Positions 7,504-43,298 of a stretch of 64,000 nucleotides of DNA are shown here, one piece after another. The notes under the pieces were generated by a model. It had not been told where the DNA came from, made no database searches, and saw only the letters and a program-made list of their open reading frames with translations. How positions within the stretch are numbered: position 1 is the stretch's first letter; each line of letters starts with the position of its first letter. Source of the stretch: Aestuariibaculum sediminum. Lineage in GTDB: Bacteria; Bacteroidota; Bacteroidia; Flavobacteriales; Flavobacteriaceae. A program made the translations under genes and the position numbers. The stretch lies in NCBI RefSeq assembly GCF_014596945.1, contig NZ_JACVXB010000005.1, positions 62,001 through 126,000 of the forward strand, read 5' to 3'.

Positions 7504-7546
7504 AAAACTAAAAGAGGCTTGCTAATAGCAAGCCTCTTTTAGTTTT
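7504..7546. terminator. Bidirectional intrinsic terminator, 43-bp near-perfect palindrome
   Basis: The two arms of 21 bases are exact reverse complements around one central A (core AAAAGAGGCTTGCTA). Both strands end in a T-rich run (TTTTAGTTTT). It lies between the convergent lipoprotein gene and the DAHP synthase gene and overlaps the TAA stop of the latter, so it should terminate both. Confidence 0.93.
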
Positions 7547-8627
7547 ATCCATTAAGAATCTTTTCCTGATGATTAATAGATTCCTGATGTATCGCTTTAA
7601 ACATTTTTAGAACGAACTCTTCACTTAAACCGTGAGCTTCGCCTTCTAACACCATTTTCCCTAAAATCTCATTCCAACGTTTGGATTGTAATACCGCAAC
7701 GTTCTTTTGTTTCTTAAGCGTTCCTATACCATCGGCAACCTTCATACGTTTTCCTAACGCCTCGATAATTTGATTATCAATCACATCAATTTGTGCTCTT
7801 AAATTATCAAGAGATTTATTATATTCCGCTTCGGTATCGGTCTCTTTTCTAATTTTTAAATCTTTCATAATCTGTACCAACGTAGAAGGTGTTACTTGTT
7901 GAGCAGCATCACTCCAAGCGTTTTCAGGATCGTAATGTGTTTCAATCATTAACCCATCGAAATTTAAATCTAATGCCGCCTGAGACACGTCAAAAATCAT
8001 ATCGCGTTTTCCTGTAATATGCGACGGATCGTTAATTAATGGAATGTCTGGATATTTATTTTGAAAATCGATAGCCAATTGCCACTCCGGATTATTTCTA
8101 TATTTCGTTTTTTCGTAAGTTGAAAATCCTCGATGTATAGCACCAATGTTTTTAACACCTGCATTATAAATTCTTTCTATACCTCCTAACCATAAGGCTA
8201 AATCGGGATTCACTGGGTTTTTAATTAATACCGGTTTATCTGTACCTTCTAAAGCATCTGCTATTTCCTGCATGATAAACGGACTAACCGTAGAACGTGC
8301 TCCAATCCAAAGCAAGTCGATATCATGCTCTAAAGCCAATTTTACATGCGCTGCATTTGCTACCTCAGTACAAACTTTCATACCGGTTTCCTCTTTAACT
8401 TTTTGCAACCATTTTAAACCTAAGGCTCCTACTCCCTCAAACATACCTGGGCGTGTTCTAGGTTTCCAAATACCAGCTCTAAAATAGCTAACATCCGTAT
8501 CTTTTAGCTCGTGAGCTATTTTCAATACTTGCTCTTCTGTTTCTGCACTACATGGTCCTGCGATTACTAATGGATGATTTAAATTTAAATCATCTAACCA
8601 GGTTCTCATTTCTTTTTTGTTTTCCAT
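7545..8627 (-). CDS. Bifunctional 3-deoxy-7-phosphoheptulonate synthase / chorismate mutase
   Basis: The 360-residue protein joins an N-terminal type Ib (KDO8P-synthase-like) DAHP synthase (about 10-260) to a C-terminal AroQ-type chorismate mutase (about 270-355). The synthase shows VIAGPCSAE near the N-terminus, FRAGIWKPRTRPG and LIKNPVNP; the mutase shows LRAQIDVIDNQIIEALGKRM and VLQSKRWNEI. It therefore covers both the entry step and the chorismate branch to prephenate. The ATG at 8627 (MENKKEMRTW) is chosen; an upstream ATG at 8666 would translate through an AAATTCC tandem repeat. In this architecture the mutase domain often mediates prephenate feedback. It lies downstream of tyrA in the pheA operon. 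Confidence 0.95.
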   Translation of the reverse strand: MENKKEMRTWLDDLNLNHPLVIAGPCSAETEEQVLKIAHELKDTDVSYFRAGIWKPRTRPGMFEGVGALGLKWLQKVKEETGMKVCTEVANAAHVKLALEHDIDLLWIGARSTVSPFIMQEIADALEGTDKPVLIKNPVNPDLALWLGGIERIYNAGVKNIGAIHRGFSTYEKTKYRNNPEWQLAIDFQNKYPDIPLINDPSHITGKRDMIFDVSQAALDLNFDGLMIETHYDPENAWSDAAQQVTPSTLVQIMKDLKIRKETDTEAEYNKSLDNLRAQIDVIDNQIIEALGKRMKVADGIGTLKKQKNVAVLQSKRWNEILGKMVLEGEAHGLSEEFVLKMFKAIHQESINHQEKILNG

Positions 8628-8643
8628 AATCTTGTAAAAATTC

Positions 8644-8669
8644 AAATTCCAAATTCCAAATTCCAAATT
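8644..8669. repeat. AAATTCC short tandem repeat
   Basis: Three and a half copies of the 7-base unit AAATTCC lie in the tyrA to DAHP-synthase spacer. A further GGAATTT at 8678-8684 could pair with a unit as a small hairpin. Nothing else is apparent in this 83-bp gap. Confidence 0.8.
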
Positions 8670-8710: not shown

Positions 8711-9565
8711 TTAACTAATACCGTTTAGTATGTCTTTAATATGATTGGTTTGTTTCATTTCATTAAAAATAGCCTCAAAATCATCGCGCTTCATTAGCTC
8801 TTTAAATTGTGTGAGGTTATTTATGTATTCTTCTAAGGTCTCTATAACATTCTCCTTATTTTGTTTAAATATCGGGGTCCACATTTCAGGAGAACTTTTT
8901 GCTAAACGCACAGTTGATGCAAATCCACTACCTGCCATATCAAAAATATCGCGTTCGTTTTTTTCTTTATCAATTACTGTTTTGCCTAACATAAACGAAC
9001 TAATGTGCGATAAATGCGACACGTAAGCTATATGTTTATCATGAGCTTCAGGATTCATATATCGCATGCGCATACCTATATCTGAAAATAGTTTCAGCGC
9101 CTTTTCCTGAAGTTTAAATGTTGTCTTCTCGACTTCACAAACAATATTGGTTTTACCAACAAAAAGCCCTTCAATAGCTGCACTTGGTCCTGAATACTCG
9201 GTTCCCGCAATAGGGTGCATAGCTAAAAAATTTCTGCGTTTTGGATGATTTTCAACCACTTTACATATATCTTGTTTTGTGGAGCCTGCATCAACCACCA
9301 AACCATTATCAGAAATCTTATCTAAAATAGTCGGCAATATTTTAACGGTAGCATCTACAGGAATGGCAACAATAACTAATTCGGCTTTATCCAAATCATC
9401 TAAAGTCGCTTTTTTATCGATTAGATTTAAGGCTAAGGCTTCATCAAGTGTCGATTCCTTTCTACTAATACCATGAATAACCGCCTTTGGATTTTTCTTT
9501 TTAATATCGATAGCCAGACTCCCGCCAATTAAACCTACTCCTATTATGTATATATTATTCATCAT
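8711..9565 (-). CDS. tyrA: Prephenate dehydrogenase
   Basis: TyrA oxidatively decarboxylates prephenate to 4-hydroxyphenylpyruvate for tyrosine. The NAD(P)-binding Rossmann motif is IYIIGVGLIGGSLA at residues 4-17; downstream are DAGSTK, the HPIAGTE block (FLAMHPIAGTEYSGP) and SHISSFML, all hallmarks of the family. At 284 residues it is the monofunctional form without a mutase or ACT domain. The start codon overlaps the stop codon of the upstream aminotransferase by one base, implying coupled translation. Confidence 0.95.
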   Translation of the reverse strand: MMNNIYIIGVGLIGGSLAIDIKKKNPKAVIHGISRKESTLDEALALNLIDKKATLDDLDKAELVIVAIPVDATVKILPTILDKISDNGLVVDAGSTKQDICKVVENHPKRRNFLAMHPIAGTEYSGPSAAIEGLFVGKTNIVCEVEKTTFKLQEKALKLFSDIGMRMRYMNPEAHDKHIAYVSHLSHISSFMLGKTVIDKEKNERDIFDMAGSGFASTVRLAKSSPEMWTPIFKQNKENVIETLEEYINNLTQFKELMKRDDFEAIFNEMKQTNHIKDILNGIS

Positions 9566-10710
9566 TACTTAAATCTTGCAATAGCTTCTTCTAAATCTTC
9601 GGTCGACCCACATAATGAAAACCTTATATAGCCTTCACCCTTGGTTCCAAATATGGTTCCAGGGGTTATAAACAAGTGATTTTCTTTTAACACTTTATCT
9701 ATAAAGGGCTCTGCTTCTAATCCCTCAGGTAATTTTGCCCAAACAAAAAGACCTGCCGCATTTTCATCATATGTACAGTTTAATGCTTTGGCAAGTTGCC
9801 AAACCAAACGGCGTCGTTTTTTATAAACACTATTTAAAGTACTAAACCACATTTCTGAGCAATTTAAAGCCTCGATAGCTCCTTTTTGTATCCCGTAAAA
9901 CATACCGGAATCCATATTACTTTTAACTTTGAGGACATTACTAATATGCTTACCATCTCCCACTAACATTCCTACACGCCATCCTGCCATATTAAAAGTT
10001 TTACTTAACGAATTTAACTCCAGGCACACCTCCTTAGCTCCTTCTACACTTAATATACTTTTGGGGTCGTTATTTAGTATAAACGTATACGGATTATCAT
10101 TCACAATTAGTATATCATGTTTTTTTCCAAAAGCCACTAACTTCTCATATACTTTAGCATCGGGAACAGCACCAGTAGGCATGTGCGGGTAATTTACCCA
10201 CATGAGTTTCACCTTACTTAAATCCTGTTTTTCTAAAGCTTCAAAATCAGGCTGCCAGTTGTTTGCCGCATCCAATTCGTAAAATACAGGTTCGGCCTCT
10301 ACCAATTTAGTTACCGATTGGTAGGTTGGATACCCTGGATTTGGAATTAAAACAGCATCACCTTTATTTAAATAGACCATAGAAATATGCATAATACCTT
10401 CCTTGCTTCCCATAAGAGGTAACACCTCGGTTAACGGACTTAAACTTACCGAAAAATGGGTTCTGTAAAAATCACAAATGGCTTGTCTTAACTCAGGTAA
10501 TCCCTGATAACTTTGATATTTATGCGCATTAGGATTTGACAACCCATCAACCAAAGCTTCAATTACTTTTTGTGGTGGTTGTAAATCAGGACTCCCTATT
10601 CCTAAATTAATTATAGGTTTCCCACTTGCTATTAACGCACTAACCTCTCTTAATTTTTTAGAGAAGTAGTATTCTTCAACAGTTTGCAGCCTATCAGCAA
10701 CTTCTATCAT
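9565..10710 (-). CDS. PLP-dependent class I/II aminotransferase, probably aromatic amino acid aminotransferase
   Basis: This fold-type I aminotransferase has 381 residues. The PLP-lysine region is SLSKTFNMAGWRVG, the cofactor phosphate site includes MGSKEGI, and the substrate-carboxylate Arg lies in GYIRFSLCG near the C-terminus. The family includes LL-diaminopimelate and aspartate/tyrosine aminotransferases, so sequence alone does not fix the substrate. Its position between pheA and tyrA, overlapping both (4 bp and 1 bp), argues for transamination of phenylpyruvate and hydroxyphenylpyruvate. It would complete phenylalanine and tyrosine synthesis in this operon. Confidence 0.9.
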   Translation of the reverse strand: MIEVADRLQTVEEYYFSKKLREVSALIASGKPIINLGIGSPDLQPPQKVIEALVDGLSNPNAHKYQSYQGLPELRQAICDFYRTHFSVSLSPLTEVLPLMGSKEGIMHISMVYLNKGDAVLIPNPGYPTYQSVTKLVEAEPVFYELDAANNWQPDFEALEKQDLSKVKLMWVNYPHMPTGAVPDAKVYEKLVAFGKKHDILIVNDNPYTFILNNDPKSILSVEGAKEVCLELNSLSKTFNMAGWRVGMLVGDGKHISNVLKVKSNMDSGMFYGIQKGAIEALNCSEMWFSTLNSVYKKRRRLVWQLAKALNCTYDENAAGLFVWAKLPEGLEAEPFIDKVLKENHLFITPGTIFGTKGEGYIRFSLCGSTEDLEEAIARFK

Positions 10711-11534
10711 ACTTTTGCTTTTTTATATTCTCCAAGCACTTTAAATCCATGTGCCATAATACTAATTATCGATTTTGCTTTTTTATAGTCGTCATAGGTT
10801 TCAAATGTAACATCTACGAAAAAAGCGTATTTCCATGGTGTTTCCACAATGGGTAATGATTGTATTTTTGTTAAATTCAATTTACAATCACTCATAACAT
10901 TTAAAATAGCTGCCAAGCTACCACGTTTATGATCGGCTTCAAATTTAATCGAGGCCTTATTAATACAGGTTTCGTCGACCTCCGAATTACTCCGTTTTAC
11001 GATAACGAAACGAGTTTCATTATGGCTAATGGTTTGTATACTTTTTGCTAAAATATCTAACTCAAATATTTCAGCTGCCGTAACACTTGCAATGGCCGCA
11101 ATTCCTTTTAATTCATGCTTACGAATACGTTGCGCAACTTCAGCGGTGTCTTTATCTTCAACCAATTTAATGTGTGGATGAAGCTTAAAAAACTCTTTAC
11201 ATTGCAACAAAGCCATAGGATGTGAATACACCTCTTTTATTTCTTTAATATTCTGCCCTGGCAAAGCCAACAAGTTATGCTGTATGTCCAAATAATGCTC
11301 TCCTACCACGTGTAATGCATATTTATCTATTAATGCATAGTTAGGTATAATGGAACCAGCAATCGAATTTTCTAAAGCCATGATAGCAGCATCACATTCC
11401 CTTGTAATTAAAGAATCTACCACCCTATCAAACGTTAAACATTCAATTACATCAACCGGTTCATCAAAGTATTGCTGTGATACAATATGATGAAAAGACC
11501 CGATTACGCCTTGTATAGCAACTGTATTTATCAT
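10707..11534 (-). CDS. pheA: Prephenate dehydratase
   Basis: PheA converts prephenate to phenylpyruvate. The catalytic domain (about 1-180) starts with VAIQGVIGSFHHIVSQQYF and ends at the conserved Thr-Arg-Phe, SHNETRFVIVKRS. A C-terminal ACT domain (about 195-272) follows. The usual Phe-binding ESRP motif is replaced by KIQSLPIVETPWKY, a form I recall from other Bacteroidota. It has no fused chorismate mutase, which is instead on the DAHP synthase. It is the first gene of the operon, and its expression should be controlled by the attenuator directly upstream (leader ORF and terminator). Confidence 0.95.
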   Translation of the reverse strand: MINTVAIQGVIGSFHHIVSQQYFDEPVDVIECLTFDRVVDSLITRECDAAIMALENSIAGSIIPNYALIDKYALHVVGEHYLDIQHNLLALPGQNIKEIKEVYSHPMALLQCKEFFKLHPHIKLVEDKDTAEVAQRIRKHELKGIAAIASVTAAEIFELDILAKSIQTISHNETRFVIVKRSNSEVDETCINKASIKFEADHKRGSLAAILNVMSDCKLNLTKIQSLPIVETPWKYAFFVDVTFETYDDYKKAKSIISIMAHGFKVLGEYKKAKV

Positions 11535-11536
11535 GT

Positions 11537-11567
11537 ATAAAAAAAGTCCCGATTTTCACCGAGACTT
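11537..11567 (-). terminator. Attenuator terminator in front of pheA
   Basis: On the minus strand AAGTCTCGG pairs with TCGGGACTT (two G-U pairs, loop TGAAAA), followed by seven T residues and then the pheA ATG five bases later. The 5' arm can alternatively pair with CGAGGC, which spans the last codons of the leader ORF (6 contiguous pairs plus two more after a mismatch). This gives mutually exclusive terminator and antiterminator structures. Confidence 0.85.
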
Positions 11568-11598
11568 ATATTTAAATTTATCTTATAAATTATACATA

Positions 11599-11673
11599 CT
11601 ACGCCTCGTTCCTCTTGCTAAAAAAGAAATAAAACCAAAAGCTAAAATATGTATAATATACTGTTCTTGTCAT
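11599..11673 (-). CDS. Phe/Tyr-rich leader peptide of the pheA operon
   Basis: This 24-codon ORF begins MTRTVYYTYFSFW, continues FYFFF and ends SKRNEA before TAG. It contains six Phe, four Tyr and one Trp, which is far from chance. It starts 12 bases after a good TAnnTTTG-type promoter box and ends 32 bases before a terminator hairpin. A ribosome stalling in the aromatic run would leave the NEA-stop codons free to form the antiterminator, while one finishing translation would mask them and allow termination. The architecture matches enterobacterial pheL, but the sequence is unrelated. It senses charging of tRNA-Phe and/or tRNA-Tyr by inference. Confidence 0.85.
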   Translation of the reverse strand: MTRTVYYTYFSFWFYFFFSKRNEA

Positions 11674-11683
11674 AATTACATCG

Positions 11684-11713
11684 CTAAAGTAAATAATATT
11701 TTAAGAAATCAAA
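11684..11713 (-). promoter_or_regulatory. Bacteroidota-type promoter for the pheA leader
   Basis: A -33 TTTG (11710-11713), an 18-bp spacer and a -7 box TACTTTAG (11684-11691, one mismatch to TAnnTTTG) read on the minus strand. Transcription should start a few bases before the leader ATG at 11673. Confidence 0.65.
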
Positions 11714-11793
11714 ATACAATAAAACCTTTTTTTTAGCATTAATAAAAATTTTAAAGATTTTACAGCAAAACACACTTTATGTTAGATTATCAT

Positions 11794-11801
11794 TATTTTT
11801 G
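11794..11801 (+). promoter_or_regulatory. -7 promoter box TATTTTTG upstream of gldA
   Basis: An exact TAnnTTTG match 20 bases before the gldA ATG. No clear -33 TTG is seen at the proper distance. Confidence 0.5.
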
Positions 11802-11820
11802 AACAAACATTTTTTTTAAT

Positions 11821-12714
11821 ATGTCTATAGAGGTTTCGGGTATCACAAAGCTTTACGGCTCGCAAAAAGCATTAAACAACATATCTTTTAAAATAGAAAA
11901 ACCAGAAGTTGTCGGTTTTCTTGGACCAAACGGAGCTGGTAAATCTACTATGATGAAAATACTAACCACCTATATTAGTCCTAATGAAGGGCATGCTATA
12001 GTGAATGGTTTTGATGTAAACACAAACAAACAGCAGGTACAAAAAAGCGTTGGTTATCTGCCAGAGCACAACCCTTTATATTTAGACATGTATATAAAGG
12101 AATACCTAACATTTAATGCGGAAGTTTATCAAATAGAAAAACAACGCATCAATGAAGTTATAGAATTAACAGGATTAACTCCCGAAGCTCATAAAAAAAT
12201 CGGACAGCTTTCAAAAGGATATCGCCAGCGTGTAGGGTTGGCGAATGCCATATTGCACAACCCCGATGTTTTAATTCTGGACGAACCAACTACAGGTTTA
12301 GACCCAAACCAACTTATCGATATTAGAAACCTTATTAAAACCATTGGTAAAACCAAAACCATACTGTTATCTACTCACATTATGCAAGAAGTAGAAGCCA
12401 TGTGCGATCGTGTTATCATTATTAATAAAGGTGAAATTGTTGCCAACAAAAAATTAAAAGAACTTCGCAATGAAAAACAACAAGTGGTCATTGTAGAGTT
12501 CGATTACCGTGTAGAAGATGCTTTTTTATTAAAACTACCTAAGGTAAACCAGGTAAAAAACACACACGATTTTGTATACGAAATTACTTTTGATACGACT
12601 CAAGATATGCGCTCTCATGTTTTTGACTTCGCACACGACAACGCGTTAAAAATATTGCAGTTAAATCAAAAAAACAGCAGCTTAGAAAACTTATTCAGAG
12701 ACCTGACAAACTAA
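11821..12714 (+). CDS. gldA: Gliding-motility ABC transporter ATP-binding subunit GldA
   Basis: The 297-residue ATPase has Walker A GPNGAGKST (35-43), signature region QLSKGYRQRVGLA, Walker B LILDEPTTGLDP and switch His in LLSTHIMQEVEAMCDR. The C-terminal extension (about 215-297) is typical of GldA/drug-exporter-like ATPases. GldA works with membrane subunits GldF and GldG in gliding Bacteroidota; neither partner is adjacent here, which is usual. It is a single gene, divergent from pheA. Assignment to GldA over another ABC-2 ATPase rests on overall resemblance and lineage. Confidence 0.85.
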   Translation: MSIEVSGITKLYGSQKALNNISFKIEKPEVVGFLGPNGAGKSTMMKILTTYISPNEGHAIVNGFDVNTNKQQVQKSVGYLPEHNPLYLDMYIKEYLTFNAEVYQIEKQRINEVIELTGLTPEAHKKIGQLSKGYRQRVGLANAILHNPDVLILDEPTTGLDPNQLIDIRNLIKTIGKTKTILLSTHIMQEVEAMCDRVIIINKGEIVANKKLKELRNEKQQVVIVEFDYRVEDAFLLKLPKVNQVKNTHDFVYEITFDTTQDMRSHVFDFAHDNALKILQLNQKNSSLENLFRDLTN

Positions 12715-19917: not shown

Positions 19918-20014
19918 TGGGCGTTACCCTTCGTTTATACTTCGGGTCGCGCTTTCCTCTTTATCTTTTTTATCGTTCCTCAAAAAAAGGATGCCGTTGC
20001 AATCGCTAGCGCAA
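19918..20014. repeat. GC-richer, partly palindromic intergenic element (REP-like) after metH
   Basis: Directly after the metH stop lies about 97 bp starting GGGCGTTACCCTTCG, with GGGTCGCGCTTTCC, a hairpin from TATCTTTTTT pairing with AAAAAAGGAT, and ending CAATCGCTAGCGC. The wording is like the dispersed GGGCGT...GGATACCG...CTAACGC elements I recall from Flavobacteria. No second copy is in this window. Confidence 0.5.
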
Positions 20015-20015
20015 A

Positions 20016-23711: not shown

Positions 23712-23901
23712 TTTGATATGATAACCGTCTACTGAATACGCTTCTGAATCTCATTATGATGTTAAAAAAAAAACACCTATGAAAAGCTTAAACAAATTCA
23801 GTTTGACGAATTTTAATTTAATATTCGTTTATCTGTATGTCATCAAGAAAAGTAAAAAAAGACTTTCCGTTATCTTTCTAATATAAAAATTACATTAGTA
23901 G

Positions 23902-23979
23902 AATGTAGCACCTTCTTTAAAAGTAAAGGGTTGCCAAGGCTTCATCGGGTCTATTCCCTCTACCTTTCTGGATAACATT
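23902..23979 (-). ncRNA. SAM-I (S-box) riboswitch upstream of metH
   Basis: Read on the minus strand, the S-box core is clear: AATGTTATC, AGAAAGGTAGAGGGA, GACCCGATGAAGCC, TTGGCAACC and AAGGTGCTACATT, with P1 formed by AATGT and ACATT at the ends. SAM binding should repress metH and metF. The expression platform in the following 190 bp is not obvious; an ACGAAT/ATTCGT hairpin is present, but no clear U-tract terminator follows it. Confidence 0.95.
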
Positions 23980-43053: not shown

Positions 43054-43220
43054 TTTTCTAATTTTTTTAGTTAATAAATAATTAAACCAAAAGCCAAATG
43101 CATCAAATTTTATTGATGTACTTATTTAGAAAAATGTTATAAGAAATATAAATTACGGATGTAATTTTTTACGTTATCTATCCAAATATTCCAAAAATAG
43201 TAAATTTTAGAATTGGGTAG

Positions 43221-43298
43221 AATGTAGCACCTTCTTTACAGGTAAAGGGTTGCTAAGGCTTCAATGGGTCTAATCCCTCCACCTTTCTTGATAACATT
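43221..43298 (-). ncRNA. SAM-I (S-box) riboswitch upstream of metY
   Basis: The minus strand shows AATGTTATCAAGAAAGG, TGGAGGGA, GACCCATTGAAGCC, TTAGCAACC and AAGGTGCTACATT. The AATGT/ACATT ends form P1. It differs from the metH copy at scattered loop positions but keeps every core block, so it is an independent functional copy. No certain terminator is visible in the 165 bp before metY. The stretch 43299-43413 before the next gene holds only AT-rich DNA with a promoter-like TTTTG...TATAAAG. Confidence 0.95.

Follow-up and report, generated by a model that had tools for sequence, protein, structure and literature searches.

The window, that is, the whole 64,000-nt stretch of Aestuariibaculum sediminum DNA analysed here, harbors on its minus strand an operon arranged in the order pheA, PLP-dependent aminotransferase, tyrA and DAHP synthase/chorismate mutase. 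The gene upstream of the pheA leader (11821-12714) lies on the opposite strand and is divergently oriented, and a terminator located ahead of pheA therefore serves no upstream gene. Among the matches listed, the nearest named pheA relatives are those of Aestuariibaculum suncheonense and A. marinum (91% and 89% PheA identity, respectively). Elsewhere on the minus strand of the window, two SAM riboswitches (23867-23978 and 43171-43297; RF00162, 82.1 and 76.1 bits) and a Flavo-1 RNA (19941-20015; RF01705, 45.7 bits) were recognized.

The 5' leader of pheA extends from position 11713 to 11535 of the minus strand and displays, in order, a putative promoter, a leader open reading frame (ORF), segment 2, an A+T-rich linker, segment 3 within a terminator stem, a run of seven T residues and the pheA ATG at 11534. 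The features of the leader and of the operon, with the basis of each assignment, are as follows.

11684 to 11713, minus strand: putative promoter of the leader, comprising TTTG (11713-11710), an 18-nt spacer and TACTTTAG (11691-11684); sequence and conservation
11599 to 11673, minus strand: leader ORF MTRTVYYTYFSFWFYFFFSKRNEA, ending in a stop codon, 24 codons including 6 Phe, 4 Tyr and 1 Trp; sequence, kept in relatives
11648 to 11657, minus strand: segment 1, 5' strand of the protector helix, over leader codons 6 to 9 (Tyr-Tyr-Thr-Tyr); folds and 78-sequence alignment
11603 to 11608, minus strand: segment 2, CGAGGC, 5' arm of the antiterminator, over leader codons 22 to 24; pairs with 11565-11560
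11589 to 11598, minus strand: 3' partner of segment 1, directly past the leader stop; folds and 78-sequence alignment
11575 to 11591, minus strand: inner hairpin of the antiterminator, A+T-rich and lying between segments 2 and 3; minimum free energy (MFE) fold from segment 2 to segment 3
11560 to 11565, minus strand: segment 3, GTCTCG, common to the antiterminator and the 5' arm of the terminator; duplex and swap tests
11544 to 11567, minus strand: intrinsic terminator stem-loop, AAGTCTCGGT-GAAA-ATCGGGACTT; z score, and 99.4% of cells paired in 78 sequences
11539 to 11545, minus strand: U-run of the terminator, T7; sequence
10707 to 11534, minus strand: pheA, prephenate dehydratase, first structural gene; NCBIfam NF008865, E 3.7e-55, 187 bits, below the curated cut-off of 219
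9565 to 10710, minus strand: PLP-dependent aminotransferase of the pheA operon; best match NF006756, below its cut-off
8711 to 9565, minus strand: tyrA, prephenate dehydrogenase; NF006307, 384.9 bits, above the cut-off of 295
7545 to 8666, minus strand: DAHP synthase with chorismate mutase domain, for which 8633 is a possible true start; matches to NF009239, to TIGR01361 and to models of chorismate mutase, all below their cut-offs

All of the elements named by an earlier, sequence-only reading of this region were located, i.e., the TTTG-18-TACTTTAG promoter, the 24-codon leader, the CGAGGC/GTCTCG complementarity and the terminator, the U-run of which ends 5 nt (and the hairpin of which ends 10 nt) ahead of the pheA ATG. 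To these we add the protector helix, the inner hairpin of the antiterminator and the observation that the leader terminates three codons earlier than in most relatives. The promoter boxes, which we take to resemble the Bacteroidota promoter consensus, are assigned as flavobacterial-type because they are conserved, TTTTG and TACTTTAGC ranking among the best-conserved columns of a 140-sequence alignment; a sigma-70 scan lent no promoter support (6 sites against 4.0 expected).

The distribution of the element was assessed in pheA upstream regions drawn from the same genus, the family, named contigs, the order and the phylum, which yielded 217 distinct regions once 15 duplicates and one short sequence (L106) had been dropped. 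The family sample, comprising 110 of at least 268 genomes with a PheA match (30 plus 80 loci) and the named contigs, of which those with PheA identity of at least 73% were counted as family, leans to close PheA relatives. Leaders were selected by their combined Phe, Tyr and Trp content, and aromatic richness is thus given by construction, while the joint presence of Phe and Tyr is not. An aromatic leader ORF followed by a terminator was identified in 203 of the 217 regions, counts that are not independent since the sequences are related, whereas dinucleotide shuffling, done twice per sequence, gave such a pair in 1 of 434 cases. Within the Flavobacteriaceae the pair was found in 182/184 regions, the two misses (L024 and L173) showing both elements by eye, while it was present in 9/13 regions from other families of the order (missing from L204, L205, L212 and L213), in 10/12 from other orders of the class (missing from L214 and L215) and in 2/8 from outside the class (L218 and L222). 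The PheA proteins of these last two loci (genomes G369 and G416) are closer to those of the class than are the PheA proteins of other genomes of their own families, which suggests that the operon may have been transferred together with its switch. As so many relatives share it, the switch is considered real and widespread, albeit of a long-known kind.

The leader ORF begins with the ATG at 11673-11671 and ends with the TAG at 11601-11599. In the genus Aestuariibaculum (the window and L001 to L005), this TAG replaces the TTG (Leu) that is usual among relatives, leaving the leader three codons shorter, and in some other lineages the stop occurs earlier still, after FFFS. For closer inspection of the family, 140 sequences were reduced to 87 by dereplication and to 78 by leaving out nine divergent-looking ones. 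In the resulting alignment, all 57 gap runs in leader columns 19 to 78 were multiples of three (3 or 6 bases), unlike those of the linker, which were of all sizes; these tallies refer to sequences rather than to independent events, and the in-frame gaps favour translation of the leader. Codons 16 to 18 specify Phe in 78/78 sequences and codon 15 specifies Tyr in 77/78, while Phe or Tyr predominates at codon 10 and Trp or Phe at codon 13 (n = 78). Codon statistics provide no proof of translation, since third codon positions of the aromatic part vary less than second positions (10.8% versus 13.6%).

When folded as a ribosome-free RNA, the leader adopts the protector helix together with the terminator (-31.1 kcal/mol; z = -2.9 over a 150-nt stretch). 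The terminator alone reaches z = -4.3 and is the sole one detected between 11300 and 12000 (0.3 expected). Across the 78 sequences, 90.5% of cells are paired in the protector helix, with changes on both sides at 5 of its 10 pairs, and the protector and terminator combined show 94.9% of cells paired, exceeding 500/500 shuffles on four of five measures (3/500 on the fifth). Slid controls attained 28 to 55% of cells paired; the control slid by +3 also displayed six pairs changed on both sides (13 cells versus 15), yet only 30.5% rather than 94.9% of its cells were paired. The alignment thereby argues for a protector (1:2) helix within the family. The RNAalifold consensus draws, instead of this helix, another leader hairpin between the Phe codons and a purine-rich stretch, which may represent a second, inner protector. 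This hairpin joins A1 columns 51-60 with columns 65-76 (about 11629-11604 of the window), pairing the U-run of the Phe codons with the purine stretch that bears segment 2.

The alternative pairing of segment 2 with the terminator arm was equalled by 0 of 60 shuffles in the window and by at most 3 of 60 leader-end shuffles in 190 of the 203 units, with 13 units failing this duplex cut; averaged over all 203 units, the duplex energy was -11.2 kcal/mol, as opposed to -5.2 kcal/mol when shuffled. Folding of the window's own stretch from segment 2 to segment 3 gives the antiterminator, inclusive of its inner hairpin, as the MFE structure (-11.9 kcal/mol in all), and the antiterminator is likewise the MFE structure in 190/190 homologues, a set pre-selected by the duplex cut. 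Within the same pre-selected set, at least four further pairs form inside the linker in 188/190 cases, and the real linker outperforms at least 27 of 30 shuffled linkers in only 99/190. RNA beginning at 11608, which mimics a ribosome positioned on the last Phe codon, forms the antiterminator (-11.6 kcal/mol) before segment 4 exists, while RNA from beyond a stop-bound ribosome folds into the terminator alone. In every case tried, adding segment 4 makes the terminator the MFE structure, even where segment 2 is left free, which implies that the switch must be decided during transcription. The choice in trpL is likewise made during transcription.

The sequence-only reading had tied its case to conservation of the short ORF and to compensatory changes in both hairpins. 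The former was observed, as were the both-side changes in the protector helix, but no double compensatory change was found in the antiterminator within the family, where segments 2 and 3 are nearly invariant (98.7% of cells paired in 78 sequences); because the helix hardly varies there, co-variation within the family alone is uninformative. Between lineages the pairs differ widely, examples being CGAGGC/GTCTCG, CGGGAC/GTCCCG, GAGGC/GCCTC and GCGGTC/GACCGC. In a swap test of 39 distinct terminator arms, pairing with the own segment 2 averaged -11.8 kcal/mol and with a swapped one -8.1 kcal/mol, with none of 20,000 permutations as good, and the 12 arms from outside the family gave -13.1 and -8.4 kcal/mol, again with 0/20,000. 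Because many arms closely resemble one another, a region's own arm is not always its best partner, and for 6 of the 39 arms the best-pairing segment-2 region is their own. The antiterminator and terminator arms thus co-vary between lineages, and the comparative test posed by the sequence-only reading turned out in its favour.

The position of the aromatic codons relative to segment 2 and the amino acids that they specify were evaluated in the 190 units that remain after the duplex cut. Two other families supplied a second set of 41 loci, of which two loci repeat earlier places (L246 = L223 and L270 = L227); this set contributed 51 units in 38 loci, 41 of the 51 units passing the cut. Three loci were without a paired unit: L258 runs into a contig end, L275 lacks leader and terminator alike, and in L263 both are visible, the terminator exceeding the length filter. 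From the first base of the last Phe or Tyr codon to segment 2, the median distance is 14 nt, which is also the distance in the window and the median among the 41 second-set units; it falls within 12 to 17 nt in 169/190 units, compared with 16% when the order of residues is shuffled. A ribosome covers approximately 12 to 13 nt past the first base of its A-site codon, and one stalled with such a footprint would leave segment 2 just free. With the occurrence of leader and terminator and the antiterminator duplex described above, this spacing supports the proposal of the sequence-only reading that classical pheL/trpL attenuator logic applies. At least two Phe and at least two Tyr codons are present in all 190 leaders, with a Trp codon in 114 of them, and all 51 leaders of the second set contain at least one Phe and at least two Tyr codons. 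As the operon makes both amino acids, joint sensing of Phe and Tyr is plausible, and the codon content supports the earlier suggestion that both end products may be sensed.

We propose that the element is very probably a ribosome-mediated transcription attenuator of the trpL/pheL kind, which would read the supply of both Phe and Tyr. RNA polymerase is presumed to start just 5' of the leader, which would be translated by a ribosome travelling behind the polymerase. Where charged Phe- and Tyr-tRNA are plentiful, this ribosome would reach the TAG at 11601 and cover segment 2 (11608-11603), and segment 3 would then be available to pair with segment 4, forming the terminator ahead of pheA. Where either tRNA is scarce, the ribosome is expected to stall in the Tyr/Phe block; if its A site holds the last Phe codon (11622), its leading edge would lie just short of segment 2. 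Such a stall would open the protector helix (11657-11648 with 11598-11589) and permit segment 2 to pair with segment 3, and the resulting antiterminator would allow transcription to continue into pheA, the aminotransferase gene, tyrA and the DAHP synthase/chorismate mutase gene. In the absence of translation, the protector helix would form and the terminator would prevail.

The same attenuator might respond to Phe only, the Tyr codons being bystanders maintained by RNA pairing or by interchange of TTT and TAT. This view, which we consider unlikely, draws on the early Tyr codons, which sit in the protector helix, on the last three regulatory codons (16 to 18), which are Phe throughout the family alignment, and on the precedent of Escherichia coli pheL, a leader specific to Phe. 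It does not readily explain why at least two Tyr codons recur in every leader of both sets, including those of lineages in which the RNA sequence is unrelated, nor why Tyr15, outside the protector helix as drawn, is almost invariant, and the operon also makes Tyr. Sensing of free Phe or Tyr by the nascent peptide in the exit tunnel, in the manner of the ligand-dependent arrest of TnaC, would account for the strong retention of the FYFFF block and its flanking residues within the family. Across the class, however, it is the richness in Phe and Tyr and the spacing that are kept rather than the peptide sequence, and the WWW and HHHH leaders encoded by the same genome (described below) fit tRNA sensing, rendering peptide arrest very improbable.

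Almost no credence is given to a plain terminator, or a hairpin acting at the level of translation, preceded by an untranslated ORF that arose by chance in T-rich DNA. Phe is indeed easily encoded by such DNA, the hairpin in the window ends close to the pheA ATG, and the variation by codon position does not reveal coding; against this stand the near absence of the leader-terminator pair from shuffled sequences, the leader gaps in multiples of three only and the constrained distance between codons and segment 2. In relatives, moreover, the terminator ends anywhere from 5 to more than 100 nt upstream of the PheA match, and the upstream gene is divergent. With regard to the attenuator reading both amino acids, it is moderately probable that it represents an ancestral, class-wide device of the Bacteroidia in which Phe and Tyr are read jointly, Tyr is truly regulatory and the unit has been doubled in series in two families. 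If so, the leading ribosome would keep near RNA polymerase in these bacteria; because such an attenuator needs a ribosome close behind the polymerase, the element can be employed to test transcription-translation coupling in Bacteroidota. It would also constitute a defined and testable aromatic amino-acid switch in a phylum where regulation by RNA has been little explored. The leader ORF and spacing rule could, in addition, guide the annotation of such switches in further genomes.

In trpL and hisL, segments 1 and 2 form the protector, 2 and 3 the antiterminator and 3 and 4 the terminator, and the stop codon lets the terminating ribosome mask segment 2. The proposed pheA attenuator shares this layout, although trpL and hisL read one amino acid each and its leader would read two; multivalent leaders are known for the ilv and thr operons. 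E. coli pheL comprises a leader with many Phe codons and operates by terminator/antiterminator logic, and it likewise precedes a prephenate dehydratase gene, whereas in the present leaders Tyr codons are always present and the operon content is different. Its Rfam model, RF01859 (Phe_leader), aligns over its full length and is the best of 4227 families; with 21.3 bits (E 0.35) against a gathering score of 55, the element is not assigned to that family. No T-box or riboswitch model matched at 11400-11850, whether at the Rfam gathering scores or at E values up to 10.

The view of the sequence-only reading that such attenuators are little described in this phylum overstated the novelty, which is modest, as the finding is partly in print. 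In the sections considered here, a 2021 study of Flavobacterium psychrophilum (PMC9723704) describes 64 5' regions with structure, together with strong clues that leader peptides govern attenuation ahead of amino-acid operons, the elements upstream of pheA and hisG being kept in other genera of the Flavobacteriaceae and lacking Rfam hits. The pheA element of that study, likened here by its description, concerns the same gene in the same bacterial family and has no Rfam hit; neither a leader sequence nor an amino-acid code or structure is given for it in the sections in question, which claim its spread within the family only. Small ORFs of Bacteroides thetaiotaomicron that resemble leader peptides feature in the pertinent part of a further report (PMC7366714). 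Leader-peptide systems were, according to the portion of Naville and Gautheret (2010) consulted, then known only in Proteobacteria and Actinobacteria, and its main text makes no mention of Bacteroidetes or Flavobacteria (no word beginning "bacteroid" or "flavobacter"). The relevant sections of Korolev et al. (2016) deal with leader ORFs and reinitiation rather than a pheA attenuator, while Lopatovskaya et al. (2010, Mol Biol 44:128), cited by other authors as comparing attenuation across bacteria, may already list Bacteroidetes leaders of this kind. The combined Phe and Tyr code, the spread beyond the Flavobacteriaceae, the spacing rule and the tandem pheA units in two families were not found in the literature surveyed, and a narrow search returned no paper joining tyrosine codons with leader-peptide attenuation.

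The same genome encodes two further leaders of this type, namely MKIILNNIWWWHFTNSGS, with WWW, ahead of a trpE-like gene (L234; TIGR00565, 253.6 bits, below the cut-off), and MKFIQNHHHHFQICSQAN, with HHHH, ahead of hisG (L236; match above the cut-off), each followed by a strong terminator. In both cases the leader codons match the product of the operon; a second, weaker trpE-like match (L235) showed no Trp leader upstream. His-rich leaders were also present in five of five further genomes (G425, G455, G326, G318 and G205), of which G425, G455 and G326 are without a leader at their own pheA and G318 belongs to the same genus as G326; no terminator was found past the His leader in two of the five (L278 and L279). 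Alongside the Phe/Tyr leader, the WWW and HHHH leaders suggest that leader-peptide attenuation may be a general means of controlling amino-acid operons in this phylum.

In 13 of the 41 second-set loci, belonging to two families of the class, two leader-terminator units are arranged in series before pheA, a count that includes the two places where tandem units were first sighted (L223/L246 and L227/L270), and in 7 of the 13 (L240, L244, L257, L259, L262, L264 and L265) both units pass the duplex cut. Salmonella mgtCBR likewise has tandem attenuators, with two leader ORFs preceding a single operon, as described in the part of PMC3641672 considered here; that operon and its signal are different, and in the present loci Phe and Tyr abound in both tandem leaders. 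A single attenuator unit is carried by the window itself.
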